Source: Rhodocyclaceae bacterium
GTDB lineage: Bacteria; Pseudomonadota; Gammaproteobacteria; Burkholderiales; Rhodocyclaceae
NCBI GenBank assembly: GCA_019455325.1
Contig: JACFMQ010000008.1
Location: forward strand, 122,748-186,747
Reading direction: 5' to 3'
Length of the DNA: 64,000 nucleotides
Part shown: in pieces, positions 27,311 through 60,805 of the stretch
Position numbering within the stretch: the stretch's first letter is position 1
Layout of the letters: each line of letters starts with the position of its first letter
Made by a program: the position numbers and the translations under genes
Notes under the pieces: generated by a model
The model's database searches: none
Told to the model about the DNA's origin: nothing
Seen by the model: only the letters and a program-made list of their open reading frames with translations

Positions 27311-29296
<1,986 letters not shown>

Positions 29297-29399: not shown

Positions 29400-29415
29400 A
29401 GCAACGGCTGTGCCA
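29400..29415 (-). promoter_or_regulatory. Sigma-54 promoter of the AcoR-type regulator gene
   Basis: On the minus strand, TGGCACA-GCCG-TTGCT matches the -24/-12 consensus with one change and correct spacing. It lies about 104 bases before the regulator ATG, which suggests autoactivation. Confidence 0.65.
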
Positions 29416-29482
29416 TAAGTAATAGGTGATGGAGCCTGCCCGTTGCGCCGAAATGCGTGCCTTCACGGGCTTTTCCGGCGAT

Positions 29483-29498
29483 TGGCACACGCCTTGCT
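29483..29498 (+). promoter_or_regulatory. Sigma-54 promoter of the cytochrome c550 operon
   Basis: TGGCACA-CGCC-TTGCT matches the -24/-12 consensus with correct spacing. It lies 51 bases before the cytochrome start and shares 15 of 16 bases with the promoter of the lanthanide-type alcohol dehydrogenase. A possible activator site, GCAACGAATTGAGCA at 29370-29384, lies about 100 bases upstream. Confidence 0.8.
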
Positions 29499-42786: not shown

Positions 42787-42833
42787 CCGGCCCGATGCGT
42801 CGGGCAGCGGAAACGACACACACTCAGGAGACG

Positions 42834-44799: not shown

Positions 44800-45372
44800 A
44801 TGCTGCGTATCCTGATGCTTGTCCTGCTGGCGATGCCGCTGGCGGCGTCGGCCGCCGATGCGGACGCCGACGATCCGCCGGTGATCGGCGGCTGCGGCAT
44901 ATGGCCGCACACGCGCTGCGCCGGCGCCGACCTGCGCCACGCCAACCTGGCCGGCAAAAACCTCGCCGGCGCCGATTTCAGCGGCGCGAAGATGGCCCGC
45001 GTCGACCTGCGCGGCGCCCTCCTGGCCGGCGCCAACTTCGACGGCGCCGACCTCACCGGCGCCAAGCTCGGCAAGGCCACGGCGCCGACCGCGACCTTCC
45101 GCGGCGCGCGGCTGGTCGGCGCGGATCTCGAATTCGCGCGGATCTTCCGCGCCGATTTCACCGACGCCGATCTGACCGCCGCCAACCTGGAGGCGGCCAA
45201 GGCCAATTTCGCCTGGTTCGAGCGGGCGCGCCTGGTCGATGCCAACCTGCAGGAAACCAAGCTGTTCACCGCCGACCTGCGCGGCGCCGACCTCTCCGGC
45301 AGCTTCCAGCGCTTCACGGTGTTCCAGGACGCCGACTTCGAGGGCTGCACCGGCTGCCCGACCGACTGGTGA
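44800..45372 (+). CDS. Periplasmic pentapeptide-repeat protein
   Basis: A 190-residue exported protein with a signal peptide (MLRILMLVLLAMPLAASA). About 20 pentapeptide repeats of the A(D/N)LxG type follow (ADLRHANLAGKNLAGADFSG), which fold as a right-handed square helix. Four cysteines lie in the mature part. Similar proteins are encoded beside the PedE-type dehydrogenase in pseudomonads; their role is unknown. It is followed after four bases by the cytochrome gene. Confidence 0.9.
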   Translation: MLRILMLVLLAMPLAASAADADADDPPVIGGCGIWPHTRCAGADLRHANLAGKNLAGADFSGAKMARVDLRGALLAGANFDGADLTGAKLGKATAPTATFRGARLVGADLEFARIFRADFTDADLTAANLEAAKANFAWFERARLVDANLQETKLFTADLRGADLSGSFQRFTVFQDADFEGCTGCPTDW

Positions 45373-45376
45373 GCGC

Positions 45377-45835
45377 ATGCGCAGACTGTCCATCCTGATC
45401 CTCGCCGCCGTCCTGTCGGCGGCTGCCTGGGCGAACGAGGTCGCCGTCGCGCCGGTCGTCGACGCCTCGGCGCTGCCGCCGCTCGGCGAAGTCTGGCGCG
45501 AGACCAATCCCTACCGCGGGCTGCCGGAGGCGCTCGCCGTCGGCCAGTCGGCCTACAACCAGGCCTGCGCCCGCTGCCACGGCGCCGACGCGGCGACGCG
45601 CGCGGCGCCGGCGCCCGACCTGCGCAACCTCGACCGCGGCTGCCGGCGCATCGTCGGCAGCGAACTGAAGGCGCGCTGCATGGCCGACAACGACGCCTAT
45701 TTCGCGAAGACGGTGCGGCGCGGCAAGACCATCGTCGGCGTCGTGCACATGCCGCCGTGGGACGGCGTGCTGCCGCAGGAAGTGGCCTGGGCCATCCAGG
45801 TTTTCTTTGAAGCGCGCGCGCGGGAGGGGCGGTGA
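45377..45835 (+). CDS. Periplasmic cytochrome c550 paralogue
   Basis: A 152-residue cytochrome with a signal peptide (MRRLSILILAAVLSAAAWA). One heme motif, CARCH, and a distal Met in HMPPWDG are visible. WRETNPYRGLPEALAVGQSA parallels the cytochrome encoded at 29549. An extra cysteine pair (CRR...ARC) lies between heme and Met. It most likely accepts electrons from the adjacent calcium-type dehydrogenase, possibly also from the lanthanide type. Confidence 0.92.
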   Translation: MRRLSILILAAVLSAAAWANEVAVAPVVDASALPPLGEVWRETNPYRGLPEALAVGQSAYNQACARCHGADAATRAAPAPDLRNLDRGCRRIVGSELKARCMADNDAYFAKTVRRGKTIVGVVHMPPWDGVLPQEVAWAIQVFFEARAREGR

Positions 45836-45930: not shown

Positions 45931-47709
45931 TCAGCCCTTGTGCAGCTTGAACACCCAGACCGAACCGCCCTGTTCGAGGTAGTTCACGCGCTTGGCGACG
46001 TCGCCGCCCCACAGCGGCACGGCGCCGCCCCAGCCGGTGGCGACGGCGATCATCTGCTCGCCGTCCTGCTCCCAGGTGACGGGCGGTGCGACGATGCCGG
46101 TGCCGGTCTGGAAGGACCACAGTTCCTTGCCGGTCTTCGCATCGACCGCCTTCAGGAAGCCTTCCGGCGTGCCGTAGAAGGCCAGCCCGCCGGCGGTGGT
46201 CAGCACGCCGCCCCACAGCGGCGCGTAGTTCTTGTTTTCCCAGACGATCTTGCCGCTGATGGGATCGACCGCGCGCATGACGCCGATGTGATCCTCGTGC
46301 AGCGGCTTGATCGTGAAGCCGGCGCCGAGGTAGGCGGCGCCCTTCTTGTAGGCCACCGGTTCGTTCCAGATGTCCATGCCCCACTCGTTGGCCGGCACGT
46401 AGAAGAGGCCAGTCTGCGGGCTGTAGGCGATCTGCTGCTGGTTCTTGCCGCCGAGGAAGGAGGGCGCCGAGAACACCGTCTTGCCCTTCTTGCCGTCGCC
46501 CGCCGTCGGGTCGCCCGGACGGTTGGCGTCGTCGTAGATCGGCCGGCCGCTGGCGATGTCGATGCCCTTCGCCCAGGTGATCTTGTTCACGAACGGGAAG
46601 GCGTTCAAGAGCTTGCCGTTGGTCCGGTCGTTCACGAAGAAGAAGCCGTTGCGGTCGGCCTTGCCGCCGGCCTTGATCGTCTTGCCGGTCTTCGCGTCCT
46701 TGTAGTCGAACGAAACGAATTCGTTCACGCCGTCGAAGTCCCAGCCGTCGTGCGGCGTGCTCTGGTAGTGCCAGGCGATCTTGCCGGTGTCGGCGTCGAT
46801 GGCCACGGTGGACGACGAGAACAGGTTGTCGCCGGGGCGCAGGTGGCTGTTCCACGGCGCGGGGTTGCCGGTGCCGGCGAAGATCAGGTTGGTGTCCGGA
46901 TCGTAGGTGGCGCCGTTCCAGGTGGCGGCGCCGCCGGTCTTCCACAGGTCGCCGGACCAGGTGGCATTGGTCGTGCCGGAGATGCCGTTCTCCTTCTTGT
47001 TGCCGTCCTTGTCGAAGACGTAGCCCATGTGCCCTTCGACCGTCGGCCGCGTCCACAGCAGCTTGCCGGTCAGCGGATCGCGCGCGTCGATGCGGCCGAC
47101 GATGCCGAATTCGCCGCCGGAGACGCCGGTGATCAGCTTGCCCCTGGCGATGGTCGGCGCGGCGGTGATCGAGTAGCCGGCGGCGTAGTCGTCGACCTTC
47201 TCCTTCCACACCACCTTGCCGGTGTCCTTGTTCAGCGCGACGAGCTGCGCGTCGAGCGTGCCGAAGATGACCAGGTTGCCGTAGAGCGCGGCGCCGCGGT
47301 TGACCACGTCGCAGCAGGGCATGATGCCGTCGGGCAGGCGGTGCTCGTACTTCCACAGCTTCTTGCCGGTCCTGGCGTCGATGGCGAAGATGCGCGAGTA
47401 CGAGGCGGTGACGAACATCTTGCCGTCGTGGACCAGCGGCTGCGACTCCTGGCCGCGCTGCTTCTCGCCGCCGAAGGACATCGACCAGGCCGGCACCAGG
47501 TTCTTGACGGTGCCGGTGTTGATCGCGGCGAGCGGCGAAAAGCGCTGGCCCTGCGTGCCGAGGCCGAAGCTGACGACGTCGCCGGGCGTCTTCGCGTCGT
47601 TCACGATGTCGGCGTCGGTGACGTCCTTCGCTGCTGCCGAACCGCCGGCAAAGGCCGACGCGACGAGAAGGGCGAGCCCGATCCGCCGGGGATTGTGCTG
47701 TCGATGCAT
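45931..47709 (-). CDS. PQQ-dependent alcohol dehydrogenase, lanthanide type (PedH-like)
   Basis: A 592-residue periplasmic quinoprotein with a signal peptide ending near AAA (residue ~27). The vicinal pair is C132-C133 (PCCDVV). Predicted ligands are E200 (GGEFG), N282 (GNPAPW), the catalytic D324 and D326 (GWDFDGVNE). The extra Asp two residues after the catalytic one is diagnostic for lanthanide-dependent enzymes such as XoxF and PedH. Numbering differs by only one from P. putida PedH. No heme domain is present. It has a sigma-54 promoter, lies divergent to the TonB-receptor/pqqE operon and ends at its own terminator. Confidence 0.95.
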
Positions 47710-47789: not shown

Positions 47790-47805
47790 TGCAAGGCGTG
47801 TGCCA
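47790..47805 (-). promoter_or_regulatory. Sigma-54 promoter of the lanthanide-type dehydrogenase
   Basis: On the minus strand, TGGCACA-CGCC-TTGCA matches the -24/-12 consensus. It is identical in 15 of 16 bases to the promoter of the c550 operon at 29483. It lies 80 bases before the ATG. Confidence 0.85.
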
Positions 47806-47996: not shown

Positions 47997-48012
47997 TGGC
48001 ACGCTGCTTGCG
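47997..48012 (+). promoter_or_regulatory. Sigma-54 promoter of the TonB-receptor/pqqE operon
   Basis: TGGCACG-CTGC-TTGCG matches the -24/-12 core exactly except for the last base. It lies 47 bases before the leader ORF and about 150 bases before the TonB-like gene. Confidence 0.8.
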
Positions 48013-48058
48013 ATCCTCCTTCGGCAAAACAGGCCGTCAGGCCGGGAGGAGACGAGGG

Positions 48059-48175
48059 ATGCGAATCGGGATCAAGGCGGGCGGCGCCGCGTATCCGGCG
48101 CCGGCGGCGTTCGGCGCCGGACGGGCAGGGCGTTTCCGGCGCGCTGCGCCGATGTCGCGCCATGTGGCCGGCTGA
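48059..48175 (+). CDS. 38-residue leader ORF at the head of the operon
   Basis: An ATG behind a strong GGAGGAG site opens a 38-codon frame (MRIGIKAGGAAYPAPAAFGA...). Its stop lies 13 bases inside the TonB-like gene, whose own ribosome site is poor. This layout suggests translational coupling. The peptide is Ala/Gly/Arg-rich with one Tyr and no Glu, so it does not match the PqqA motif (ExxxY). A precursor peptide role is possible but unsupported. No homologue is recognised. Confidence 0.5.
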   Translation: MRIGIKAGGAAYPAPAAFGAGRAGRFRRAAPMSRHVAG

Positions 48176-48902
48176 ACGTATCTGCCCCGGCGGCGAGCGG
48201 CGCTTCCTGGCGCTGCTCGCCGTCTCCGCCGCGCTGCACGCGCTGGCGCTGGCCTGGGTGCGGATGCCGGAGGCACCGCGCCCGGGGGCGCCGGCCATGC
48301 TCGCGGTCCTCAACGCAAGCCTGCGCGTCGGCGGCGTTGCGCCCGAGCGCGACGCCGCGCCGTCGCATCCGGCGCCGCCGCCGGTCGTCCAGACGGCGGC
48401 GCGGCAGCCCTCGGCGCGCCGCGCGCCGCGCGCGCTGCCGGCGGCGCCGGAGGTTGCCGGGCCGACGGCTGCGCCATCCGCTGCGCCATCTGTGGCGGCT
48501 GTAGCCGCCGTCGCCGAAACGACGACGCCGGCGGTGCCAACCCCGGTCGCCGCGCCGCCGCCGCCGGCGCCGCCTGCCGCCGACGCGGCGCGGCTGCTCG
48601 ACGACTACGGCCAGCGCCTCGCCGATCTCTTCTCGCGCCAGCAGGAATACCCGCGCCTGGCCGCCCTGCGCGGCTGGGAGGGCGAGGTGCGCGTGCGCCT
48701 CTCGGTGGCGCGGCGGGGCAACCTGACCGCGGTGCGGCTGGAGCGTTCGAGCGGCTACGAGGTGCTCGACCGGCACGCGCTGGCCATGGTCGAGGCCATC
48801 GGCCAACTGCCGCCGCCGCCCGCCGGTTTCATCGAATCCTCACCCACCGGCGACGTCCAGGTCGTCGTTCCCGTTCACTACAAACTGAGAAAACCCGTAT
48901 GA
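48162..48902 (+). CDS. TonB-family energy transducer
   Basis: A 246-residue protein. One membrane helix ([19 protein letters not shown]) is followed by an Ala/Pro-rich periplasmic spacer (about residues 45-155) and a C-terminal TonB domain ([37 protein letters not shown]). It would couple the proton-motive force to the receptor encoded next. No exbB or exbD is nearby. It overlaps the receptor gene by four bases (ATGA) and is the first long gene of the operon. Confidence 0.9.
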
Positions 48903-51397
48903 AAACGCAACGTCGCAAACCCCTCGCCGGTCTCCTCTGTGTTGCCCTCGCCGGTGCCGCCGGCGCCGCGGAACCGACTTCCGGGGTCGTCGAGACGGCC
49001 CCCGTGCACGTCATCGGCACCATGCCGCTGCCCGGCGTCGGCCTGCCGCGCGACCAGATCCCGGCCAACGTGCAGACCGCCGAGGGGGCGCAACTGGCGG
49101 ACCCGGCCGATACCAGCGTCGCCGATTTCATGAAGCGCCGGCTCGGCAGCGTGCATGTCAACGACATCCAGAACAACCCGTTCCAGCCCGACGTCAATTA
49201 CCGCGGCTACACCGTCTCGCCGCTGCTCGGCACGCCGCAGGGCCTGTCGGTCTATGTCGACGGCGTCCGCCTCAACCAGCCGTTCGGCGACGTGGTCAAC
49301 TGGGATCTGATCCCGCGTTCGGCGATCGCCTCGCTGGCGATGATGCCCGGTTCCAACCCGGTCTTCGGCCTCAACACGCTCGGCGGCGCGCTCTCCCTGC
49401 GCACCAAGGACGGCCTTTCCAGCCCGGGCACCGCGGTGCAGGCGCTGGCCGGCAGCGACGGGCGGCGTTCGCTCGAATTCGAGCACGGCGGCAGCAATGC
49501 GCAGGGCCTGAACTGGTTCGCCACCGGCAGCGGCTTCCGCGACGACGGCTGGCGCGACGACTCGCCGAGCCGCGTCAAGCAGCTCTTCGGCAAGCTCGGC
49601 TGGGCCGACGCCAGGACCGACCTGTCGTTGAGCCTGGCGCTCGCCGACAGCAAGCTCACCGGCAACGGCCTGCAGGAGCAGCGTTTCCTCGAACGCGACT
49701 ACAGCAGCGTCTACACCAAGCCCGACGAGACCGAGAACAAATCGCTGCACCTCAACCTGTCCGGCCAGCGCAGCCTGAGCGACGACCTGCAGCTTGCCGG
49801 CAACGTCTACTACCGCAAGCTGCGCACCCGCACCTACAACGGCGACATCAACGAGGACGCCTTCGACCAGGCGGTGTACCAGCCCAGCGCCGCCGAGCAG
49901 GCGGCGCTGGCGGCGGCCGGCTACAGCGGCTTCCCGACCTCCGGCGCCACGGCCGCGAACACGCCGTTCCCGTTCTGGCGCTGCCTCGCCAACGTGCTGC
50001 TCGACGACGAGCCGGCGGAAAAGTGCAACGGGATGATCAACCGCACCCGCACCGAACAGGACAACTACGGCGTCTCCGGCCAGCTCACCTCGTTCGCCCC
50101 GCTGTTCGGCCGCAAGAACCAGTTCACCGCCGGCGCCGGCTTCGACGCCAGCCGCATCCGCTTCCACCAGTCGGCCCAGTTCGGCTACCTCAATCCGGAC
50201 CGGAGCATCACCCCGGTGGACGCCTTCGCCGACGGCAGCGCGATCGACGACGACGGCGGCCTGATCGACAGCCGCGTCGACCTCAGCGGCCGCACCCGCA
50301 CCTGGAGCATCTACGCCAGCGACACGCTGACGCTGAACGAGGTCTGGCACCTGACGCTGGCCGGCCGCTACAACCGGACGACGGTGAAGAACCGCGACCA
50401 CCTGACGCCGGGCGGCGGCAGCGGCTCGCTCGACGGCGACCACACCTTCGACCGCTTCAACCCGGCGCTCGGCCTGGCCTTCACGCCGACGCCGGCCTTC
50501 AGCGCCTACGCCGGCTACAACGAGGGCAGCCGCACGCCGACCGCGGTCGAGCTGGGCTGCGCCGATCCGGCCAACCCGTGCAAGCTGCCGAACGCCATGG
50601 CCGGTGATCCGCCGCTCAAGCAGGTCGTCACCAAGACCTGGGAGGCCGGCCTGCGCGGCATGCTCGGGGCGAAGACACGCTGGAACGCCGGCGTCTTCCG
50701 CGCCGACAACTACGACGACATCATGTTCGTCGCCGACGACACGTCCGGCTTCGGCTACTTCCGGAACTTCGGCAAGACCCGCCGCCAGGGCGTCGAACTC
50801 GGGCTGGACGGCACGCTCGGCCGCGTCGACTTCGGCGTCAACTACACCTTCCTCGACGCCACCTACCGCAGCGCCGAGACGGTCAACGGCGCCGGCAACA
50901 GCAGCAACGACGCCTCCCGGCCGGGCCTGGAAGGCAACATCGACGTCCGTTCCGGCGACCGCATCCCGCTGATCCCGCGCCACATGCTCAAGGCTCACGT
51001 GGACTGGAAGATCGACGACGCCTGGTCGGTCGGCCTCGGCATGGTCGCCGTCGCCGGCAGCTATGCGCGCGGCAACGAAAACAACCAGCACCGGGCCGAC
51101 GGCGTCTACTACCTCGACCCGGGCAAGAGCAGCGGCTACGCCGTCTTCGACCTCGGCGGCAAGTACCGTGCGACGCCGCAGTTGAGCTTCTTCGCCCAGG
51201 TGAACAACCTCTTCGACCGCGAGTACCACACCGCCGCGCAGCTCGGCGCCACCGGCTTCGGCAACGACGGCGGCTTCGTCGCGCGGCCGTTCGCGCCGCC
51301 GGCGGCCAACAACGAGCAGCAGTTGGGCGCCACCTTCTACGCTCCGGGCGCACCGCGCAGCTACTGGGTCGGCCTGCGCTACGCCTTCGGCAAATGA
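48899..51397 (+). CDS. TonB-dependent outer-membrane receptor, possibly for lanthanides, a lanthanophore or PQQ
   Basis: An 832-residue receptor with a signal peptide (about 1-24). The plug follows ([38 protein letters not shown]), then a 22-strand barrel ending in GLRYAFGK. There is no N-terminal STN signalling domain. The acidic loop [14 protein letters not shown] is notable. The substrate is inferred only from context: it is divergent from a lanthanide-type dehydrogenase and in an operon with pqqE. PQQ uptake, as by E. coli YncD/PqqU, is an alternative. It overlaps the kinase gene by four bases. Confidence 0.88.
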
Positions 51398-52803
51398 AGC
51401 TGCCGCGTCGCCCCAGCCTGCGCACGCGCATCAGCCTGCTGCTGACGGCGCTGGCGGCGGCGCTGCCGCTCGCCCTCGGCGGCCTCTGGCTGCACGGCGC
51501 GCGCGCCGGCATCCACGAGGAAATCGAGGCGGCGACGCGCGTCTCGGCGCAGTGGCTGGCGTCGCTGGCGCGCGAGGCGCAGGGCGACGCGGCCGCCGCC
51601 GATCGCCTGGGCGGGCAACTGCGCGCGCTCGGCCGCATCCGCGCCAGCGAACTCGAAATCCTCGCGCCGTCCGGCGAGCGCCTCTACCGCTCGCCGCCGG
51701 CCGTCTACAAGGCCGGCCGCGACGCGCCCGCCTGGTTCGCGGCGCTGGCCACGCCGTCGTTCGCCGAGCGCCGCTTCGACGCCGGCAGCTTCGTGCTGGT
51801 GCTCTACCCCGATCCGTCGCGCGCCGTGCTCGATGCCTGGGACGATCTCGTCGCCATGGCCGGCTGGGCGGCGGCGCTGCTCGGGCTGCTCTTCGTCGCC
51901 GTGCGCGGCGCGCTCGCCCGCGCGCTGCGGCCGCTCGACGCGGTGGTGGCGGCGCTCGACCGCACCGCGCGCGGCGACGCCGGCCGCCGCTTCGCCGCGC
52001 GCCTGCCGGTGGGCGACGCGCCCGAACTCGACCGCCTGGCGCGCGCCTTCAACGGCATGGCCGACCGGCTGGCGCAGGCGGTCGACGAGAACGTGCGCCT
52101 GGAGGCCGACCGCGAGATCGCGCGCCGCCTGCGCGCCGGGCTGGAGGACGAGCGCCGCGCCATCGCGCGCGAGCTGCACGACGAACTGGCGCAGGGCATC
52201 ACCGCCGTGCGCGCGCTGGCCGGCGCCATCGTCCAGCGCAGCGACGACCGGCCGGCGCTGGCCGAGCCGGCGCGGCACATCGTCGCCGTCGCCGGCGAGA
52301 TGCAGGACGGCGTGCGCGCGATCCTGCAGCGCCTGCGTTCGCCGATTGCCGCCGACGGCCTGGCGGCGGCGCTGCACCGGCACTGCGCGGCCTGGCGCGA
52401 GCGGCATCCGCGCATCGCGCTGGAACTGCGCTGCGCGCTCGGCGACGCGCCGGTCGGCGAGGCCGCGGCCGAGGCCGCGCTGCGCATCGTCCAGGAGGCG
52501 CTGACCAACGTCGCCCGCCACGCCGGCGCCGCGCGCGTCGAGGTCGCGGTCGACGCCGCCGGCGGCTGGCTCGCGCTGTGCGTCGCCGACGACGGCCGCG
52601 GCCTCGCCGCCGGCGCCTCGCCGCGGCCCGGCTGCGGCCTCGGGCTGGCCGGCATGGCCGAGCGCGCGGCCGCGCTCGGCGGCGAACTGCGCGTGACCGA
52701 CCGCCCCGGCGGCGGCGTCCGCGTCCTCGCCCGGTTGCCCGACGCGGCGCCGGCGCGCCAGGATGAAGGCAGCGCGCCGGCCGGCGCCGCCTGCCCGCGC
52801 TGA
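51394..52803 (+). CDS. NarX-type sensor histidine kinase
   Basis: A 469-residue membrane kinase. Two helices (about 12-32 and 148-170) frame a periplasmic sensor domain of about 115 residues. HAMP, a HisKA_3 domain with His in [11 protein letters not shown], and a HATPase domain ([23 protein letters not shown]) follow. It overlaps the receptor gene (ATGA). A sensor encoded directly after its receptor suggests it reads the imported ligand, perhaps lanthanide, as PedS2 does in P. putida. Confidence 0.92.
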
Positions 52804-52842
52804 ACGGTTTCCACTTTCCCCATGCCGACCGGAGGCACCACG

Positions 52843-53502
52843 ATGAATCCGACCACGAACCTTCCCCTGCGCGGCTGCCGCGTGCTGCTCGCCGACGACC
52901 ACGCCGTCGTCCGCCTCGGTTTTCGCCTGCTGCTCGAAGGCGCCGGCGGCGAAGTGGTCGGCGAGGCCGACAGCGGCGAGGCGGCGCTGCGCCTTTACGG
53001 GGAACTCTTCCCCGACGTGCTGGTGATGGACGTGTCGATGCCCGGCATGGGCGGGCTGGCGGCGCTGGAACGGCTGCGCGCGGCGCAGCCGGCGGCGCGC
53101 GCGCTGATGCTCTCGGCGCACCACGACGCGGCGATCCCGGCGCGCGCGCTGCGCCTCGGCGCCTGCGGCTACCTGTGCAAGCGCGCGGCGCCGGAGGAAT
53201 TCCTGCGCGCCGTGCGCGAGATCGCCGCCGGCCGCCGCTACCTCGACCCGGAACTGGCGCCGGCGCTGGCGCTGGCGCAGATCGCCGGCGCCGCCGACCC
53301 GGTCGCCGCGCTGACCGAGAAGGAGTTCGCCGTCTTCATGAAGCTCGCCGCCGGGCATTCGGTGAACGAGGTCGCCGAGACCTTCTTCCTCAGCCCGAGC
53401 ACGGTCGGCACGCACCTCTATCACATCAAGCAGAAGCTGAACCTGCGGAACGCCGCCGACATGGCGCTGCTCGCCGTGCGCAGCGGGCTGGTCGAGGCGT
53501 GA
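52843..53502 (+). CDS. NarL-family response regulator
   Basis: A 219-residue regulator. The receiver has the pocket VLLADDHAVVRLG and phosphoacceptor D63 (VLVMDVSMPG). The LuxR-type HTH is at about 150-210 (LTEKEFAVFMKLAAGHSVNE), with unusual KEF in the usual place of REx. It follows its kinase by 39 bases and overlaps the hydrolase start by one base (TGATG). Target sites are unknown. Confidence 0.92.
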   Translation: MNPTTNLPLRGCRVLLADDHAVVRLGFRLLLEGAGGEVVGEADSGEAALRLYGELFPDVLVMDVSMPGMGGLAALERLRAAQPAARALMLSAHHDAAIPARALRLGACGYLCKRAAPEEFLRAVREIAAGRRYLDPELAPALALAQIAGAADPVAALTEKEFAVFMKLAAGHSVNEVAETFFLSPSTVGTHLYHIKQKLNLRNAADMALLAVRSGLVEA

Positions 53503-54467
53503 TGGTGGCGGCGGACGGCGACGGCCTCTTTCCCGCGGCGCCGCCGTTCGCCGAACGCCGCCTGCCGGTCGGCGACGGCCACGCGCTGCACGTCGAGGAA
53601 TGCGGCAACCCGGACGGGCTGCCGCTGCTCTTTCTGCACGGCGGGCCGGGCAGCGGCTGCTCGCCGCGCCAGCGCCGGCTGTTCGACCCGCGGCGCTTCC
53701 GCGCGGTGCTCGTCGACCAGCGCGGCTGCGGCCGCAGCGCGCCGCTCGGCGGGCTGGCCGGCAACGACACCGCCGCGCTGGTCGCCGACTGCGAGCGCGT
53801 GCGCGCGGCGCTCGGCGTCGACCGCTGGCTGCTCTGCGGCGGCTCCTGGGGCAGCCTGCTCGCGCTCGCCTACGCCCAGGCGCATCCGCACGCGGTCGCC
53901 GGCCTGGTGCTGCGCGGCGTCTTCCTCGGCTCGCGCGAGGAGGCGCACGGCTACGCGCGCGGCGCGGCGCGCGCCGCCCGGCTGCTGCCGCCGGGCAACG
54001 CCGACTTCGTCGCCGATCCGCTGGCGCCGTGGGTCAGCCGCATCCTCAGCGCCGATCCGGAACGGTCGCGGCCGGCGGTCCGCGCCTGGCTCGACCACGA
54101 ACGCGCGCTGATGGGCGAAGCGCCGCTCGCCGCGCCGGCCGACGCGATGCAGACGGCGAAGGCGCGCATCCAGATGCACTACCTGATGCACGACTGCTTC
54201 CTGGCGCCGGGCCGCCTGCTCGCCGGCGTACCGGCGATCCGCCACCTGCCGGCGGCGATCGTGCAGGGGCTGGCCGATCCGGTCTGCCCGCCGCTCGCCG
54301 CCGCGCGCCTGCGCGCCGCCTGGCCGGAGGCGGAGTGGACCGGCATCGCCGGCGCCGGCCACGGCGGCCTGACGCCGGCGCTGGCGTCGGCGATCATCGC
54401 GGCGCTGGCGCGCGTCGCCGACCGCGCCGAACGGCGCGGCCGCGACCGGAACAGCGAGCGGGGCTGA
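53502..54467 (+). CDS. Prolyl iminopeptidase-like alpha/beta hydrolase
   Basis: A 321-residue cytoplasmic hydrolase. The oxyanion motif is LFLHGGPGSGC, the nucleophile Ser is in GGSWGSLLALAYA, and the late His is in GAGHGGL. This pattern is that of proline iminopeptidases, which cut N-terminal Pro from peptides. In an operon with pqqE it may trim a peptide precursor. The PQQ pathway normally uses other peptidases, so this role is inference. Confidence 0.9.
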   Translation: MVAADGDGLFPAAPPFAERRLPVGDGHALHVEECGNPDGLPLLFLHGGPGSGCSPRQRRLFDPRRFRAVLVDQRGCGRSAPLGGLAGNDTAALVADCERVRAALGVDRWLLCGGSWGSLLALAYAQAHPHAVAGLVLRGVFLGSREEAHGYARGAARAARLLPPGNADFVADPLAPWVSRILSADPERSRPAVRAWLDHERALMGEAPLAAPADAMQTAKARIQMHYLMHDCFLAPGRLLAGVPAIRHLPAAIVQGLADPVCPPLAAARLRAAWPEAEWTGIAGAGHGGLTPALASAIIAALARVADRAERRGRDRNSERG

Positions 54468-54577
54468 AAGCGCGCCTAGCGAAAATCGGGAGGCCGCAAT
54501 CCCGATCCGCCGGATGCCGCGGCGGCCGCCGCCGCGCACACTGGGCCATCGGCATCTTCCGACGAAAGGAACGGGCC

Positions 54578-55723
54578 ATGCCCACCGAACAGAAAGGTCT
54601 CAGCCTCGACGGCCAGGGCCGGCCGCTCTGGCTGTCGCTGGAACTGACCTACCGCTGCCCGCTGAAATGCTCGTGGTGCAACAATCCGCTCGACTTCGCC
54701 GACTACGCGGCGCGCGAGCTTTCCACCGACGAATGGAAGGCGGTGCTGCGCGACGGCCGCGAACTGGGCGCGCTGCAGCTCGGCTTCACCGGCGGCGAGC
54801 CGCTCTTGCGCGACGACCTGGAGGAACTGGTCGCCTATGCGGACGCCATCGGCTACTACACCAACCTGATCACCTCCGGCGTCGGCCTCGACGATGCGCG
54901 CCTCGCAGCGCTGAAGGCGGCCGGGTTGAAGCAGGTGCAGCTTTCCCTGCAGTCGACCCGGGCCGATCTCACCGACGCGCTGGTCGGCGCCCGCGCGCAT
55001 GCCGCCAAGATCGAGGCGGCGCGGCTGATCAAGGCGCACGGCCTGCCGATGGTGCTCAACGTGCCGGTGGTCCGGCAGAACGTCGAGCGGATCGGCGAGG
55101 CCATCGAATGGGCGGCCGGCCTCGGCATCGAGTACGTCGAGTTCGCCAACATCCAGTATTACAACTGGGCGCTGATGAACCGCGACGAGCTGCTGCCGAC
55201 GCTCGAACAGGTCCGCGCCGCCGAACGCACGGTGAACGAATGGCGCGCCCGGCTCGGCAAGGCGATGACGATCTACTTCGTCATCCCCGACTACCACGAG
55301 GGCCGGCCGAAGGCATGCATGAACGGCTGGGGCGCCATCCACCTGACCGTGGCCCCGGACGGCGTGGCCATGCCGTGCCAGGAGGCGCGCGCCATCCCCG
55401 GCCTGGAATTCCTGTCGGTGCGCGAGAAGCCGCTGGCCTGGCTGTGGCACGAGTCGCCGCTGTTCAGGAAATACCGCGGCGTGGACTGGCTGCCCGAGCC
55501 CTGCGGCTCGTGCCCGGAAAAGGAGAAGGACTTCGGCGGCTGCCGCTGCCAGGCCTTTCTGCTCACCGGCGACGCCGGCAACGTCGACCCGGCGTGCAGC
55601 CGCTCGCCGCACCATCACCGCGTGCGCGAGGCGGTCGCCGCCGCCGCGCAGCCGCTGCGTTTCCGCAAGCCGCTGGTCCGGCGCTCGGCGCGCGCGGTGG
55701 AAACCGCGTTCATGGGAGATTGA
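54578..55723 (+). CDS. pqqE: PqqE-type radical SAM/SPASM enzyme
   Basis: A 381-residue radical SAM enzyme. The [4Fe-4S] motif is C27-x3-C31-x2-C34 (CPLKCSWC). The SPASM region at the C-terminus has CGSCPEKEKDFGGCRCQAF and ACSRSPHHH, as in true PqqE. PqqE links Glu and Tyr of the PqqA peptide, the first step of PQQ synthesis. pqqA, B, C and D are absent from the window. It follows the hydrolase by 110 bases with AAAGGA before the ATG. Either it serves the standard pathway encoded elsewhere or it acts on another peptide. Confidence 0.95.
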   Translation: MPTEQKGLSLDGQGRPLWLSLELTYRCPLKCSWCNNPLDFADYAARELSTDEWKAVLRDGRELGALQLGFTGGEPLLRDDLEELVAYADAIGYYTNLITSGVGLDDARLAALKAAGLKQVQLSLQSTRADLTDALVGARAHAAKIEAARLIKAHGLPMVLNVPVVRQNVERIGEAIEWAAGLGIEYVEFANIQYYNWALMNRDELLPTLEQVRAAERTVNEWRARLGKAMTIYFVIPDYHEGRPKACMNGWGAIHLTVAPDGVAMPCQEARAIPGLEFLSVREKPLAWLWHESPLFRKYRGVDWLPEPCGSCPEKEKDFGGCRCQAFLLTGDAGNVDPACSRSPHHHRVREAVAAAAQPLRFRKPLVRRSARAVETAFMGD

Positions 55724-55726
55724 GCA

Positions 55727-55819
55727 ATGAGACACCCCTACGACACCGCCACCGGCACCGTCGCGCTCGGCGTCGCGCTGACCGCGCTGCTCGTCGCGCT
55801 GCTGCGCTTCATCGGCTGA
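55727..55819 (+). CDS. 30-residue single-pass membrane peptide
   Basis: A 30-codon frame starts three bases after the pqqE stop and ends seven bases before the PuuD-like gene. The peptide is a short polar head (MRHPYDTATG) plus one hydrophobic helix (TVALGVALTALLVALLRFIG). Its tight fit between two genes supports a real product. It lacks the Glu of PqqA, but has one Tyr. It could be a small membrane subunit or an assembly factor. Confidence 0.6.
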   Translation: MRHPYDTATGTVALGVALTALLVALLRFIG

Positions 55820-55826
55820 GGCGGCG

Positions 55827-56333
55827 ATGGATCTTTCCGCGCTCGACCTGCTCGCCCGCTGGGCGCACTTCATCGCCGGCATCGTCTGGGTCGGCCACAA
55901 CTACGCCAGCGTCGTGCAGCGGCCGAGCTGGCGGCCGCTCGCCGCCGCCGACCTGATCGACGACGCCGGCCCGCGCTTCCAGGCTTTGCTCAACCGCGAG
56001 CACGGCTTCTTCCGCTGGGCCTCGGTGGTCGCCTGGGGCGCCGGCATGTTCATGCTCTGGCAGCGCGGCTGGCTGGCCGACGCGCTGACGCTGCGCGGCG
56101 GCCTGGCGCCGCTGGGCGTCGGCGTCTGGATCGGCACGCTGATGATGATCAACGTCTGGCTGGTGCTCTGGCCGCACCAGAAGAAGGTGCTCGGCCTGGC
56201 GCCGGCGAGCGTCGAGGAACGGCTGCGCTGCGCGCGCATCACGCACCTCTCGTCGCGCACCAACACCATGCTGTCGATTCCGCTGCTGTTCTTCATGGCT
56301 GCCGGGGCGCACGGCGGCTTTCTGTTCGGGTAG
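55827..56333 (+). CDS. PuuD-like (DUF989) membrane protein
   Basis: A 168-residue inner-membrane protein with about four helices. ARWAHFIAGIVWVGHNYASV and VGVWIGTLMMINVWLVLWPH resemble the membrane domain of urate hydroxylase PuuD. The C-terminal cytochrome domain of PuuD is missing. Histidines in the helices could bind heme. No purine catabolism genes are nearby, so urate is not a likely substrate. It may feed electrons to or from the cluster enzymes. Confidence 0.82.
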   Translation: MDLSALDLLARWAHFIAGIVWVGHNYASVVQRPSWRPLAAADLIDDAGPRFQALLNREHGFFRWASVVAWGAGMFMLWQRGWLADALTLRGGLAPLGVGVWIGTLMMINVWLVLWPHQKKVLGLAPASVEERLRCARITHLSSRTNTMLSIPLLFFMAAGAHGGFLFG

Positions 56334-56339
56334 CGGGGC

Positions 56340-57434
56340 ATGGTGGCGCCGTTCGCCGACGCCTACAGCTTTGCCGCCGGCCCGGCGCGCCTGCCCGACG
56401 CGGTGCTCGAACGCGCCCGCGACGAACTCTTCCGGCGCGGCCGTGACGGCGCTTCGGCCGTCGAGCGGCCGTTCGCCGACGACGCCTTCCGCGCGACGCT
56501 GGCGCGCGCCCGGGCGCGGCTCGCCGGGCTGCTGGCGCTGCCGGCGGACTACCGCATCTTGTTCCTGGCCGGCGGCGCCATGCAGCATTTCTCGCTGCTG
56601 CCGATGAACCTGCTCGGCCCGTCGCGCGGTGCCGCCTACGCCGACTCCGGCTACTGGTCGCGGCGCGCCATCGACGAGGGGCACAAGCGGGCGACGGTCC
56701 GCGTCGTCGCGCGGCCGCCGGCCGGCGCGCCGGCGGCGCCCGACGCGCGCGGCTGGGATATCCCGGCCGACGCCGCGTACTGTCACGTGACGCCGAACGA
56801 GACCGCCGACGGCGTCGCCTGGCCCGCGCTGCCGGACACCGGCGCGGTGCCGCTGGTCGCCGACTGCACTTCGTGCTTCCTTGCTGCGCCGCTCGACGTG
56901 GCGCGCTTCGGGCTGGTCTACGCCGGCGCGCAGAAGAACGTCGGCGTCGCCGGCGTGTCCATCGTCATCGTCCGCGAGGATCTGCTCGAACGCGCGCCGC
57001 TCGACCTGCCGGCGCCGTTTTCCTACGCCGCGCAGGCGGCGCAGGATAGTTGCGTGAACACGCCGCCGACGCCGGCGATCCACGTCGCCGCGCTGGTCCT
57101 CGACTGGATCGCCGAGTCCGGCGGGCTGGCCGCGATGGCCGCCGCCAACGCGGCGAAGGCGGCGCGGCTGTACGACTTCATCGACGCCAGCGGCGGCTTC
57201 TACGCGGCGCCGGTGCGGCGCGACTGCCGTTCGAACGTGAACGTCCGCTTCCATCTCGCCGACGGCTTCGACGAGGCGCGCTTCCTCGCCGAGGCCGAGC
57301 GCCACGGACTCTTCCACCTGCGCGGCCATCCGCGCGTCGGCGGCCTGCGCGCCAGCCTCTACAACGCCATGCCGACGGCCGGCGTCGACGCGCTGCTCGG
57401 CTTCATGGCCGAGTTCATGAGCCGGAACGGGTGA
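56340..57434 (+). CDS. SerC-like class V aminotransferase with altered substrate pocket
   Basis: A 364-residue PLP enzyme close to phosphoserine aminotransferase. It has YSFAAGPARLP at the start, FLAGGAMQHFS, DCTSCFLAAPLD and the PLP lysine K199 (GAQKNVGVAG), equivalent to K198 of E. coli SerC. The N-terminal S-H-R phosphate-binding motif of SerC reads R-P-F here, and the C-terminal GHR reads GHP. These changes argue against phosphoserine as substrate. It overlaps the TIM-barrel gene by four bases (GTGA). Confidence 0.88.
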   Translation: MVAPFADAYSFAAGPARLPDAVLERARDELFRRGRDGASAVERPFADDAFRATLARARARLAGLLALPADYRILFLAGGAMQHFSLLPMNLLGPSRGAAYADSGYWSRRAIDEGHKRATVRVVARPPAGAPAAPDARGWDIPADAAYCHVTPNETADGVAWPALPDTGAVPLVADCTSCFLAAPLDVARFGLVYAGAQKNVGVAGVSIVIVREDLLERAPLDLPAPFSYAAQAAQDSCVNTPPTPAIHVAALVLDWIAESGGLAAMAAANAAKAARLYDFIDASGGFYAAPVRRDCRSNVNVRFHLADGFDEARFLAEAERHGLFHLRGHPRVGGLRASLYNAMPTAGVDALLGFMAEFMSRNG

Positions 57435-58174
57435 GCGTTGCCGCGCCGGCGTTCGCTCTCGGCATCGGGCTCGCCGGCGGCATCGACCGCGACGGCCGCC
57501 GGGCGCGCGAACTGCTCGCCGCCGGTTTCGACAGCGTCGAGTTCGGCAGCGTCGCCGCCGGCATCGACGGCTTTCCGGACGATGGCGCGGCGACGCTCGC
57601 CGCGCGCCTCGCCGCGCAGGCGCATGGCGACGGGCCGCGCATCGGCGTCGGCCTCGGCCGGCCGCCCGGTGCGCCGCCGGCGGCGCTCGTCGATTGCTGG
57701 ACCGCCGGGCTGGAAGCGGTCGCCGGCGTCGCCGACTACGTCAGCCTCAACCTGACGGCGGCGGCCAACCGGCCGCTGCTGGCGCCGGAATATCGGCCGC
57801 TGCTGGCGCGCGCCTTCGCCGCCGTCGCCGCGCGCCGCGATGCGCTCGCCGCCGGCGGCCATCGCGTCGACCTCGCCGTCAAGCTGCCGCTCGACGGCCC
57901 CGGCGAGCCCTTGCCGACCGTCGGCCTGCTCGCCGTCGCCGCCGGCTTCGAGCGGCTGACGTTGGTGCGCAGCGACGGCGACGCCGGCTTCGCGCGCTTC
58001 GCCGAGCTGGTGCGGCAAATCGACGGACGGGCGGCGCCGGTCGCCGTCGGCGGCATCCGCAGCGCCGCCGACGTGGCCGCGGCGCGCGAAGCCGGCGCCG
58101 CCGGCGTGCAGGTGCACCGGCTCTACGCCGAGCGGGGCGCGGCGTGCCTGGCCGGGCTGCGCGCGGCGACGTGA
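57431..58174 (+). CDS. Dihydroorotate-dehydrogenase-like TIM-barrel flavoprotein
   Basis: A 247-residue protein resembling the FMN domain of dihydroorotate dehydrogenase but shorter than the usual ~310-340. Visible parts are FDSVEFGSVAAG near the N-terminus, DYVSLNLTA, the FMN-contact Lys in DLAVKLPLD, and the phosphate loop GGIRSAADVAAAREAGAAGV. The GTG start overlaps the aminotransferase stop. No pyrimidine gene is near. It may reduce or oxidise a product of the cluster. It is the last gene of the operon. Confidence 0.82.
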   Translation: MSVAAPAFALGIGLAGGIDRDGRRARELLAAGFDSVEFGSVAAGIDGFPDDGAATLAARLAAQAHGDGPRIGVGLGRPPGAPPAALVDCWTAGLEAVAGVADYVSLNLTAAANRPLLAPEYRPLLARAFAAVAARRDALAAGGHRVDLAVKLPLDGPGEPLPTVGLLAVAAGFERLTLVRSDGDAGFARFAELVRQIDGRAAPVAVGGIRSAADVAAAREAGAAGVQVHRLYAERGAACLAGLRAAT

Positions 58175-58225: not shown

Positions 58226-58242
58226 ATGGGAATTGTTCCCAT
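58226..58242. promoter_or_regulatory. Fur-like box upstream of the FecI-type sigma factor
   Basis: ATGGGAA-TTG-TTCCCAT is a perfect 7-3-7 inverted repeat of Fur-box type, within a longer partly symmetric region. It covers an in-frame ATG at 58226, which is therefore not the start of the sigma factor. Confidence 0.65.
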
Positions 58243-58270
58243 CTTGTCCGGACTATCGACGCCACCGCCC

Positions 58271-58735
58271 ATGGCCGCGCATTTCTATACCGAACTGCTC
58301 AATTTCTTCTCCCGGACGCTGCGCGATCGCGACGCCGCCACCGACGTGGTGCAGGAAAGCTACGCCCGCGTGCTGGCCATGGAGAGCCAGGCGACGATCC
58401 TCGACGTGCGCGCCCTGCTTTACCGGACCGGCAAGAACATCGTGATCGACGCGGCGCGCTCGCGGCAGGCGGAGCTGCGGATGATCGAGACGCTGAGCCT
58501 GATCAGCCCGGACGAATCCCCCTGCCTGGAACGCACCGTCGGCGCCCGGCAAAGCCTGCGCCGACTGGCCGCCCGCCTCGGCGCGCTGCCGCGCAAGCGG
58601 CGCGAGGCCTTCATCCTGGTCCGCATCTACGGCTTCACGCACGCGGAAGCGGCGGCGCACCTCGACACCACGCCGGTGTCCATCGAAAAACACATCGTGC
58701 GCGCGGTCTGCGACCTGATGGCAGCGGCGGCCTGA
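58271..58735 (+). CDS. FecI-type ECF sigma factor
   Basis: A 154-residue iron-starvation sigma factor. Region 2 has RDAATDVVQESYARVLAMES and LLYRTGKNIVIDAARSRQ; region 4 has LGALPRKRREAFILVRIYGF and TTPVSIEKHIVRAV. The ATG at 58271 gives the typical start (AAHFYTELLNFFSRTLRDRD). It is controlled by the Fur-like box and released by the FecR-type protein next to it. Confidence 0.92.
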   Translation: MAAHFYTELLNFFSRTLRDRDAATDVVQESYARVLAMESQATILDVRALLYRTGKNIVIDAARSRQAELRMIETLSLISPDESPCLERTVGARQSLRRLAARLGALPRKRREAFILVRIYGFTHAEAAAHLDTTPVSIEKHIVRAVCDLMAAAA

Positions 58736-58736
58736 C

Positions 58737-59750
58737 ATGGGCAAAGCCACCGACGCCGCACAGCAGCGCCTGTTCGAGCAGGCCCTGCTGTTGGTCGTCC
58801 GCCGGCACGGCGGCTCGCCGGCCGAGGCGGCGGCCGCCGCCCGCGAACTGGCCGACTGGGAAAGCCGCGACGCCGCCCACGCCGACGCCTGCCGGGCGGC
58901 GCTGGACGCCTGGCAACGCACCGACGCCGCCGCGCTGCGCGACGCCTTCGCGCTGCCGCCATCGGCCGACGCGCGCCAGCGGCGGACCCGCCGCCGGCTG
59001 ACCGCACTGCTCGGCTTCGGCGGGCTGGCGCTGCTTGCCGGCGGCGTCGGCCGCTGGTACTGGCAGCAGCCGTCGTTCACGCTGGTCGCCCGCACCGGGC
59101 AGGGGCAGATCGACAGCCGCGAACTGCCGGACGGCAGTCGCATCGACCTGGCAGCGCGTTCCGAAATCGCCGTCGCCTATCACCGCCAGCGCCGGCTGGC
59201 GCATCTCGCCGCCGGCGAGGTACGTTTCGACGTGGCGCCGGACGCCCGGCGCCCGTTCGAGATCGACACGCGGCACGGCCGGGTGCATGTGCTCGGCACC
59301 GCGTTCTCTGTGCGCGTGCAGGACGACGGCCTGCGCGTCGCCGTCGCCCGCGGGCGCGTCGCCGTATGGCGCGCCGGGCAGCCGCCGGACGCGGCGCCGG
59401 ATAGCGAGCTTGCCGCCGGCGACGCCGTTTTCGTGCCGGTGGACGGCGAAGCGCGGCGCAGCCGCATTGCGCCCGACGAGGTCGGCGCCTGGCGCCAGGG
59501 CTGGCTGGTCTTCGACGGCATGCCGCTCGACCTGGCGGTCGACCGCTGGAACGACTATCTGGCGACGCCGCTGACCATCGCGCACCGCCCGGCGCTGGCC
59601 CGCCTGCGGCTGACCGGCAGCTTCCCGATCGGCAACCCGCTCGCCTTCCTGGAAACGCTGCCGCGCACCCATCCGGTCGAGGTCGTCGCGCAGGGCGGCG
59701 GGCGCTTCACGGTGCGGCCGCGACCGGCCGCCGAACACAACGAAAAATAA
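58737..59750 (+). CDS. FecR-type anti-sigma/regulator protein
   Basis: A 337-residue protein that spans the membrane once (LTALLGFGGLALLAGGVG, about 82-100). The N-terminal cytoplasmic part binds the sigma factor. The periplasmic FecR domain (QIDSRELPDGSRIDLAARSE, RVHVLGTAFSVRV) and a C-terminal STN-contact domain follow. It passes the receptor signal to FecI. It starts one base after the FecI stop. Confidence 0.92.
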   Translation: MGKATDAAQQRLFEQALLLVVRRHGGSPAEAAAAARELADWESRDAAHADACRAALDAWQRTDAAALRDAFALPPSADARQRRTRRRLTALLGFGGLALLAGGVGRWYWQQPSFTLVARTGQGQIDSRELPDGSRIDLAARSEIAVAYHRQRRLAHLAAGEVRFDVAPDARRPFEIDTRHGRVHVLGTAFSVRVQDDGLRVAVARGRVAVWRAGQPPDAAPDSELAAGDAVFVPVDGEARRSRIAPDEVGAWRQGWLVFDGMPLDLAVDRWNDYLATPLTIAHRPALARLRLTGSFPIGNPLAFLETLPRTHPVEVVAQGGGRFTVRPRPAAEHNEK

Positions 59751-59765
59751 GCACCCCAAGGCGCG

Positions 59766-60332
59766 TTACGCAAACGGACTGCCGTCTTGCCCGCGTTTCT
59801 GCGAATCCAGCCAGGCGGCATCTTCCTCAAGACGCCTTTTCGCCCTTGCGCTTTCGTCCGTGTCGAAGAAAACGGTTTCCCGGAATCGATACCTCAAGGT
59901 CGGGACGGAAAGGATGCCGGCGAGCAGACCAGCCCTGATCCACTCCTTGTCGCGATCTTCCAGCCGGGCGTACTTGGAAACGGCAGCATCGTTCGGCTCG
60001 AGAAACCACGCGGCCACGCCGCTTTCAAATACGATCGGAATCAGCCGGGACTCCCAGCCAGCGGGAAGTGTCGGCAAAAAAGGAGAAACGGGATCGACGT
60101 AATAGCCGAACCGCTGCTCGAACTCGCTGCCCAGGCCAAGGGGAGCCGCGAGGTCCGACGCCCTGTCCGGATCGTTCTTCGGGTACAGATCGACATCGAT
60201 GGACATCAGCATCCTCTCCGGCGGAGGGCTGTTGCAGCCCAGGACCGACAGGCTGCCGATGATCACGTAGTCCTTGTGATGAATGAGCTTTTGCGCGGCC
60301 TCGAGTTCCGTCTGGATCGCCTTCCTGTCCAT
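59766..60332 (-). CDS. DUF6036-like nucleotidyltransferase-type protein
   Basis: A 188-residue protein. VIIGSLSVLGCN...RMLMSIDVDLYPKND resembles the Gly-Ser and DxD elements of the DUF6036/nucleotidyltransferase fold. LEPNDAAVSKYARLEDRDKE is a block common in such proteins. The pair with the upstream small gene resembles two-gene toxin-antitoxin or abortive-infection modules. The ATG lies six bases from the partner stop. Its base composition is lower in GC than the neighbours, consistent with transfer. Confidence 0.7.
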   Translation of the reverse strand: MDRKAIQTELEAAQKLIHHKDYVIIGSLSVLGCNSPPPERMLMSIDVDLYPKNDPDRASDLAAPLGLGSEFEQRFGYYVDPVSPFLPTLPAGWESRLIPIVFESGVAAWFLEPNDAAVSKYARLEDRDKEWIRAGLLAGILSVPTLRYRFRETVFFDTDESARAKRRLEEDAAWLDSQKRGQDGSPFA

Positions 60333-60338
60333 CAAAGG

Positions 60339-60659
60339 TCAACGCAGGGACAGGAAGCCGAAAGGGGTGTTCTGGCGCAGGGCCGGGCCGTCGCCGTCGG
60401 GTTGCAGAATCGCCTTCGACGCGGCATCCGGCGGCATCGACAGGATATTCCGCCAGGCGTCGATGTAGTGCTGCGAGCACAAACGGCCGGCTTCCCATTT
60501 CCGGATCTGGTCCGATGCCTTTTGCACGACCGACTCGGCATCAGGCCCCATCAGCGCGTCGACCGCCCTGCGGTGGAGCTCGAACAAGGCAATATCCGCA
60601 TGCGCCTTGACGGCTCTTGCCTGCTGCCTTGCCTGAAAAATCCGGGAGCGACTGTCCAT
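60339..60659 (-). CDS. Small partner protein of the nucleotidyltransferase-like gene
   Basis: A 106-residue helical protein of unknown family. SVVQKASDQIRKWEAGRLCS and YIDAWRNILSMPP resemble the antitoxin-like partners of DUF6036 genes. It is the first gene of the pair. The frame is well formed, with an ATG at 60659 and its stop just before the downstream ATG. Confidence 0.65.
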   Translation of the reverse strand: MDSRSRIFQARQQARAVKAHADIALFELHRRAVDALMGPDAESVVQKASDQIRKWEAGRLCSQHYIDAWRNILSMPPDAASKAILQPDGDGPALRQNTPFGFLSLR

Positions 60660-60805
60660 GCGCTCATTATCGGGAATACATCAAAGAGATCAAGGGATTG
60701 ATGCCTCGATGCACGACAAATTCCCCCAGCCGAAAAAATAATTGTCCGGTTGTCGGCCGGACCAACGTCTTCACCGGGAAAGCAACCCAAACGAGGACGT
60801 TCATC

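Follow-up and report, generated by a model that had tools for sequence, protein, structure and literature searches.

The operon at positions 48162-58174 on the plus strand of the window (the whole 64,000-nucleotide stretch of Rhodocyclaceae DNA analyzed here, G000:C25:122748-186747, whose right edge is the contig end) is, with a probability that we put at about 0.55, a variant operon for the biosynthesis of pyrroloquinoline quinone (PQQ), with a finishing branch that would be independent of PqqB and PqqC and probably of O2. PqqC, and probably PqqB, need O2, and denitrifiers use PQQ dehydrogenases without it. We favor this reading because the gene core of the operon is conserved, because pqqA' and pqqD' have been kept while pqqB and pqqC were deleted, and because the operon's type of PqqE is the only PqqE in 13 other genomes and in G344. 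Additionally, FNR-type boxes precede pqqA' in relatives, the substrate sites of two of the enzymes appear altered, and the same idea was reached independently in the part of PMC12423496 that deals with this gene set.

The operon consists of nine genes and a 30-amino-acid (aa) membrane peptide, with gene ends that mostly overlap or nearly touch. All genes listed in the original prediction were present on the plus strand, as it had described, with a 110-bp gap between the peptidase (ending at 54467) and PqqE' (starting at 54578); because of this gap, a single transcript can only be presumed. PqqE' (54578-55723) is a radical SAM/SPASM protein with CxxxCxxC at residue 27. It scored 472.6 bits against the PqqE equivalog model TIGR02109 (cutoff, 381) and was the sole PqqE above that cutoff in its genome. 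The plus-strand genes that follow encode the 30-aa peptide, hydrophobic by its hydropathy (55727-55819), a PuuD'-like four-helix membrane protein (55827-56333; Urate_ox_N, PF06181), a SerC' pyridoxal phosphate (PLP) enzyme (56340-57434), and DHOD' (57431-58174), a flavin mononucleotide (FMN)-type barrel with the class-2 dihydroorotate dehydrogenase (DHOD) fold, identified from its alignment, AlphaFold2 model and Foldseek comparison as lacking the N-terminal extension. Of the original interpretation, the link to PQQ, a peptide-derived cofactor, is supported, as are the lanthanide-type (PedH-like) neighbor and the sigma-54 sites.

The same gene order was sought in other genomes, as had been suggested with the original prediction, and the core formed by PqqE', the peptide, PuuD', SerC' and DHOD' was found in 31 genomes and at 80 named loci, two overlapping sets. 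The 31 leave out G344, which has PqqE' but no PuuD', SerC' or DHOD' within the 19.9 kb read. A SerC search of 395 genomes of the family gave 23 other genomes at 52 to 85% identity and no other listed match above 50%, and PqqE', PuuD' and SerC' lay in this order in all 20 loci fetched around SerC' matches, with DHOD' in 19 (the contig ends in L061). The named loci are the best 80 of 190 relatives matched by the PuuD' alignment across the contig collection; PqqE'-PuuD'-SerC' occurred in all 80, and DHOD' was recognizable by tblastn in 71. These SerC and PuuD' searches ruled out that the core is unique to this locus. A DHOD' search of 300 genomes of the order matched only 3, the present genome included, since such a single-protein search misses diverged members. 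Hosts of the core include Dechloromonas denitrificans, Denitromonas, Thauera, Aromatoleum, Stutzerimonas, Methylotenera mobilis 13, Noviherbaspirillum autotrophicum, Herminiimonas, Pseudogulbenkiania and Sedimenticola, and several of the core-bearing genera denitrify. The peptide between PqqE' and PuuD' exceeded the hydropathy cutoff in 74 of 81 tandem loci (window included), and the remaining seven had peptides of 30 to 37 aa just below it. In L055, L058 and L066, profile scans of the region before PqqE' assigned a family to 1 of 10 open reading frames (ORFs). The 29 sampled PqqE' rows formed one clade versus eight canonical PqqE proteins (support, 100/100); the longest end branch among them was that of G344 (0.75). 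Two named records, Dechloromonas agitata is5 (L155) and Acidovorax sp. 210-6 (L156), had near-identical gene layouts and identities, explained either by a transfer in the recent past or by an assembly that is mixed or mislabelled.

Intact pqqA' and pqqD' genes of the same genome lie outside the window on another contig, C15 (L116). The variant PqqA' (24 aa, EVTAY) has the E-x3-Y motif of PqqA, and PqqD' scored 85 bits against a cutoff of 46. E-V-T-A-Y was found in 96/96 PqqA' matches and a Cys at about position 9 in 91/96, in a search whose query itself contained EVTAY and in which some genomes appear twice; five canonical PqqA peptides among the matches had EITMY, EVTMY or EITLY. No PqqB was found in this genome in a search in which 32 of 36 genomes had one, and no PqqC in searches of which one showed PqqC in 53 of 80 genomes. 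Comparison of C15 with the pqqBCAD region of the genus mate G347 showed collinear flanks matching at 82 to 88%, between which 1,880 bp in G347 (pqqB and nearly all of pqqC) were reduced to 169 bp on C15, leaving pqqA' and pqqD' intact. As these collinear flanks lie on one contig, an assembly gap hiding pqqB and pqqC at their normal position is ruled out. In total, 4 of 81 core genomes lacked PqqC (4/31 of the G-numbered genomes and 0/50 of the named ones; 50 of the 80 named loci were taken, leaving out 21 regarded as already among the G-numbered genomes and 9 with short contigs), and the same four lacked PqqB, for which 36 genomes were searched. These were the present genome, G412 (99% complete, 10 contigs), G395 (320 contigs) and G370 (85% complete), and each of them retains the core along with a PQQ dehydrogenase.

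Across genomes, pqqA' and pqqD' lie either upstream of PqqE' or elsewhere. Some genomes have a B'C'A'D' set, with or apart from the core; others have a contiguous A'D'E'-core, mostly where there is a separate canonical operon; and a third arrangement is the A'D'E'-core genome without pqqB or pqqC. A second, canonical PqqE was carried by 14 of the 31 core genomes. E' was the only PqqE, with PqqB and PqqC present, in 13 other core genomes and in G344, and G590 combined E' as its only PqqE with canonical-type PqqB and PqqC. That E' is the only PqqE beside PqqB and PqqC in these 13 genomes and G344 speaks for production of the usual PQQ precursor by A'D'E', which very likely feed PQQ itself.

In alignments of distinct sequences within length limits (81 SerC', 75 DHOD' and 86 PuuD'), SerC' and DHOD' keep the residues that would bind their cofactors, and their predicted substrate sites are altered. 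The PLP lysine K199 and the Asp of SerC' were present in 81/81 sequences and the C-terminal Arg in 79/81, with gaps in the other two. S-H-R, which we take to be the phosphate-binding motif of phosphoserine aminotransferases, was replaced mostly by P-F-[T/S] (F in 81/81, P in 78/81), and by P-F-A in the window protein, which passed the SerC model NF003764 (399.6; cutoff, 253) and failed TIGR01364 (360.4; cutoff, 443.6). DHOD' kept the FMN-site lysine K151 in 75/75 sequences, G207 in 75/75 and G208 in 74/75; its AlphaFold2 model (predicted local distance difference test [pLDDT] score, 92) matched Escherichia coli PyrD in Foldseek with a template modelling (TM) score of 0.81, and the protein is about 90 residues shorter. 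Four His residues of PuuD' (H14, H24, H59 and H162 in the window protein) were invariant across 86 sequences, and its AlphaFold2 model of four long helices (pLDDT, 86) had no PDB fold match at an E value of 0.001 or below. Its relationship to PuuD and these His residues suggest that PuuD' may bind heme.

An FNR/Anr-type box (TTGAT-N4-ATCAA, whose consensus and meaning we assume) was sought before pqqA', counting loci with distinct upstream sequence. Among contiguous A'D'E' cores, 10/44 had an exact box, 15/44 one with at most one mismatch and 33/44 one with at most two, and 30 of these 33 boxes sit 171 to 250 bp upstream of pqqA'. At the same loci, the corresponding frequencies were 0.6, 3.3 and 19.9% in an AT-matched background (1,249 stretches) and 0.2, 1.9 and 12.8% in an unmatched one (2,538 stretches), and the best of 19 permuted half-sites gave 0, 3 and 9 of 44. 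Where pqqA' lies apart from the core, the box was present in 0, 2 and 4 of 35 cases, and none of nine canonical pqqA genes had one within two mismatches.

In the mechanism that we propose, PqqE' and PqqD' would cross-link the Glu and Tyr of PqqA' (E-V-T-A-Y), with PqqD' and PqqA' supplied from C15, and the peptidase would probably help to release the cross-linked Glu-Tyr pair. PuuD', SerC', DHOD' and perhaps the 30-aa peptide would then complete the ring system instead of PqqB and PqqC. SerC' may activate an amino-acid carbon through PLP, DHOD' may use FMN to aromatize the ring that stems from Glu (an N-CH(COO-)-CH2 arrangement like that of dihydroorotate), and PuuD' may take electrons to the respiratory chain, so that they would pass to the quinone pool or cytochromes rather than to O2. 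TonB, the receptor and the kinase/regulator pair would contribute uptake and control, and sigma-54 probably coregulates the operon and a PQQ-using PedH-type dehydrogenase. In its full form, to which we give slightly less than an even chance, the proposal is of a complete route in which hydroxylation, cyclization and oxidation, starting from cross-linked PqqA', would be carried out by the SerC-derived, DHOD-derived and four-His proteins and the peptide without O2, in analogy to HemN, which replaces HemF, and which would be the only PQQ route left in this lineage. If true, this would be new chemistry by relatives of SerC, DHOD and PuuD on a ribosomal peptide product, and the genomes with the core and no pqqB or pqqC make the speculated O2-independent branch directly testable.

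The upstream half of the operon, also on the plus strand, encodes TonB (48162-48902; PF03544, 2.5e-14; TIGR01352), a TonB-dependent receptor that is only distantly PqqU-like by profile and PDB comparison (48899-51397), a sensor histidine kinase with HAMP, HisKA_3 and HATPase domains (51394-52803), a LuxR-type response regulator assigned by domain search (52822-53502), and a prolyl-aminopeptidase-like alpha/beta hydrolase (53502-54467; TIGR01249, 236 bits, below the cutoff of 260); a putative 38-aa ORF lies at 48060. Kinase and regulator were both matched around the core in 25 of 80 named loci. The peptidase is a possible PqqA protease: a prolyl-aminopeptidase-like gene also adjoins canonical pqq operons in L086, L091, L114 and L148, which suggests a PqqA-processing protease in these bacteria. 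In L086, L114 and L148 it lies upstream of, and divergent from, the canonical pqqA or pqq operon, and L091 has two canonical pqqA genes, one inside the pqq operon and one by a TonB-peptidase-kinase-regulator set on the opposite strand (10398-10463, 15858-15923).

At E values of 1e-5 or below, the operon receptor matched nothing in the PDB other than YncD/PqqU, the E. coli PQQ importer (PMC12124388). It reached 109 bits in the PqqU equivalog model, and a better relative, the receptor encoded at 5792-7972 of L116 directly after pqqA'D' on C15, reached 681 bits; both are below the cutoff of 1,200. The order on C15 recurs in G347 (L078), and PMC12124388 reports PqqU-pqq synteny in four Burkholderiales genomes. 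PqqU-like receptors at E values of 1e-80 or below were found in 23 of 30 genomes, none passing the model cutoff. Identity of the operon receptor to its counterparts in three genus mates was 45 to 46%, and its nonsynonymous distance (dN) was about 0.47 to the mates versus 0.07 to 0.11 among them; the receptor has been swapped in this lineage.

The sigma-54-type motif TGGCAC-N5-TTGC had five exact matches in the window versus 0.09 expected from shuffles. One faces the operon (47997-48011, plus strand) and another (47791-47805, minus strand; TGGCACNNNNNTTGC) faces the adjoining gene for a PedH-like PQQ alcohol dehydrogenase (45931-47709, minus strand), so that a sigma-54 operon divergent from a lanthanide-type dehydrogenase, as originally described, was recovered with an exact site each way. 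The dehydrogenase scored 898 bits with its best PDB matches, 6zcv/6zcw, and 784.7 bits in TIGR03075, and its WDFDG aligns to the WDFDG of 6zcv; we take this Asp pair to be a mark of lanthanide-type enzymes. Among seven scanned relatives in which the dehydrogenase and TonB genes are neighbors (one, L049, from the same genome as L117), the operon-side site occurred in five (L049, L065, L137, L151 and L153) and the dehydrogenase-side site in six, so that five had both, L050 only the dehydrogenase-side site and L067 neither; L151 and L153 had a third site about 70 bp before pqqA'. To the left, on the plus strand, lie genes for a second, PedE-like PQQ alcohol dehydrogenase with WDFSG, Ser replacing the second Asp (42795-44732; TIGR03075, 717 bits), a pentapeptide-repeat protein (44800-45372; PF00805) in a PedD-like position by the ped gene table in PMC12997753, and a PedF-like cytochrome c (45377-45835; TIGR04494, 120.8 bits, just below the cutoff of 122). 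Further left are a kinase/regulator pair, a cache protein, a sigma-54 activator and an aldehyde dehydrogenase. The neighborhood thus resembles the Pseudomonas putida ped cluster, as given in that table, in its PedH-like, PedE-like, pentapeptide and PedF-like genes and the kinase/regulator pair nearby, but differs by two sigma-54 activator genes, the exact sigma-54 sites and the PQQ genes with puuD, serC and dhod. A second divergent pair of exact sites (29401-29497) lies between a sigma-54 activator gene (27314-29287) and a gene for a PedF-type cytochrome c (29570), which is followed by genes for a solute-binding protein and a PQQ-associated beta-propeller protein.

Several findings weigh against a PqqB/PqqC-independent finishing branch. 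The core rarely stands alone, PqqC being retained in 77 of 81 core genomes (27/31 G-numbered, 50/50 named), and in G344 (L112, 9116-12413) PqqE' accompanies B'C'A'D' with no PuuD', SerC' or DHOD' in the stretch read, so that the core may be dispensable where pqqB and pqqC exist. The position of the Ser that is presumably the DHOD catalytic residue holds Ala in 51/75 DHOD' sequences and in the window protein, and Ser in 6/75. The present genome has no FNR-type box before pqqA' or pqqE', and the exact boxes are not independent, since six of the ten belong to genus g189, which has Denitromonas among its named members. Its PqqE' branch is 0.19 long versus 0.042 and 0.047 for genus mates. Ratios of nonsynonymous to synonymous differences (pN/pS) were 0.35 to 0.40 versus 0.20 to 0.29 among mates for PqqE' and 0.36 to 0.55 versus 0.22 to 0.34 for PuuD', while SerC' and DHOD' did not stand out, but synonymous distances look depressed by GC bias, and these ratios allow no inference on relaxed selection. 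A PqqU-like receptor was present in 4/4 genomes without pqqB and pqqC versus 13/17 core genomes with them, and the former may scavenge PQQ. Retention of PqqC, the receptors of all four exceptions, the swapped operon receptor, the faster PqqE' and the PuuD' ratios would suit a core that is accessory to PqqB and PqqC (in regeneration, repair or low-O2 supply) and cannot finish PQQ alone, the four genomes being scavengers with leftovers. We consider this improbable, as every core gene is intact in the present genome and two well-separated PqqE' lineages without pqqB and pqqC (the present genome and G412) retain the core, and PqqU-like receptors are also common beside pqqB and pqqC. Additionally, the dN values of the present genome to its mates (PuuD', 0.093 to 0.121; SerC', 0.096 to 0.116; DHOD', 0.150 to 0.217) resemble the values between G398 and its other mates (0.094, 0.104 to 0.108 and 0.210 to 0.221, respectively).

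The core might instead make another molecule derived from A', such as a metal chelator, a modified form of PQQ or a different quinone cofactor. The distinct, near-invariant PqqA' and the second, canonical PqqE in 14 of 31 core genomes are consistent with this, and we know of no counterpart of SerC chemistry in the known PQQ pathway. We nevertheless judge another product unlikely, because A'D'E' would have to serve PQQ, if it is made, in the 13 core genomes and G344 where E' is the only PqqE beside PqqB and PqqC. The original prediction had pointed to acquisition and sensing of a lanthanide or lanthanophore with synthesis of a peptide-derived chelator, to which the adjoining PedH-like gene with its Asp pair, the ped-like neighborhood, and TonB and the receptor inside the operon could be related. 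The receptor did not bear this out, its PDB relatives being PqqU/YncD (109 of 1,200 bits); many core loci have neither receptor nor PedH-like gene within 10 kb on each side, and no lanthanide-specific feature was seen in the core, with no lut or mll model searched. Homologous clusters lacking a PQQ dehydrogenase were also sought, and one or more TIGR03075 enzymes were present in 31 of 32 PqqE' genomes. Only G463 had none; this assembly is 90% complete, in 260 contigs, and its cluster contig starts within TonB. Such enzymes also occurred in 18/18 PQQ-gene-bearing genomes without PqqE' and in 3/10 genomes without any PqqE, so that their co-occurrence shows a link to PQQ and, given the 18/18, is ruled out as lanthanide evidence. 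A lanthanide system appears very improbable, and PQQ is the product that we favor.

A literature search on this gene set or O2-independent PQQ synthesis found one paper, PMC12423496 (2025), and what follows refers to its available part. It describes pqqA-E-D-puuD-serC-pyrD in Hyphomicrobium denitrificans (Hden_0548-0553) and other denitrifiers, finds O2-independent PQQ synthesis "tempting to speculate," and names examples that also hold a classical pqqABCDE or a second pqqE. The earlier statement that no described system has this combination therefore stands only in part: the core set of A, D, E, puuD, serC and pyrD is described, whereas the attached TonB-receptor-kinase-regulator-peptidase unit differs from it. 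In contrast to the Hyphomicrobium cluster, the present genome has lost pqqB and pqqC, has no coexisting classical pqqABCDE, carries pqqA'D' unlinked from the core, lacks an FNR-type box and has sigma-54 sites; section 2.9 of that paper does not mention the 30-aa peptide. Compared with that part of PMC12423496, what is new comprises the genomes without pqqB and pqqC, the FNR-type boxes, the signature of PqqA', the 30-aa peptide, the altered active sites and the context of sigma-54 sites, TonB and regulator. Canonical pqqABCDE shares with the present system a PqqA-type peptide with E-x3-Y, PqqD and PqqE, but the present genome lacks PqqB and PqqC and its PqqE' falls in a clade of its own.

Directly downstream of the operon, at window positions 58226-63250, comes a separate signaling system of the siderophore type, with genes for an extracytoplasmic function (ECF) sigma factor, FecR and an STN-type TonB receptor. 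At the other end of the window, positions 71-2596 encode a Protoglobin-PAS-GGDEF-EAL protein that is likely an O2-sensing cyclic-di-GMP enzyme.

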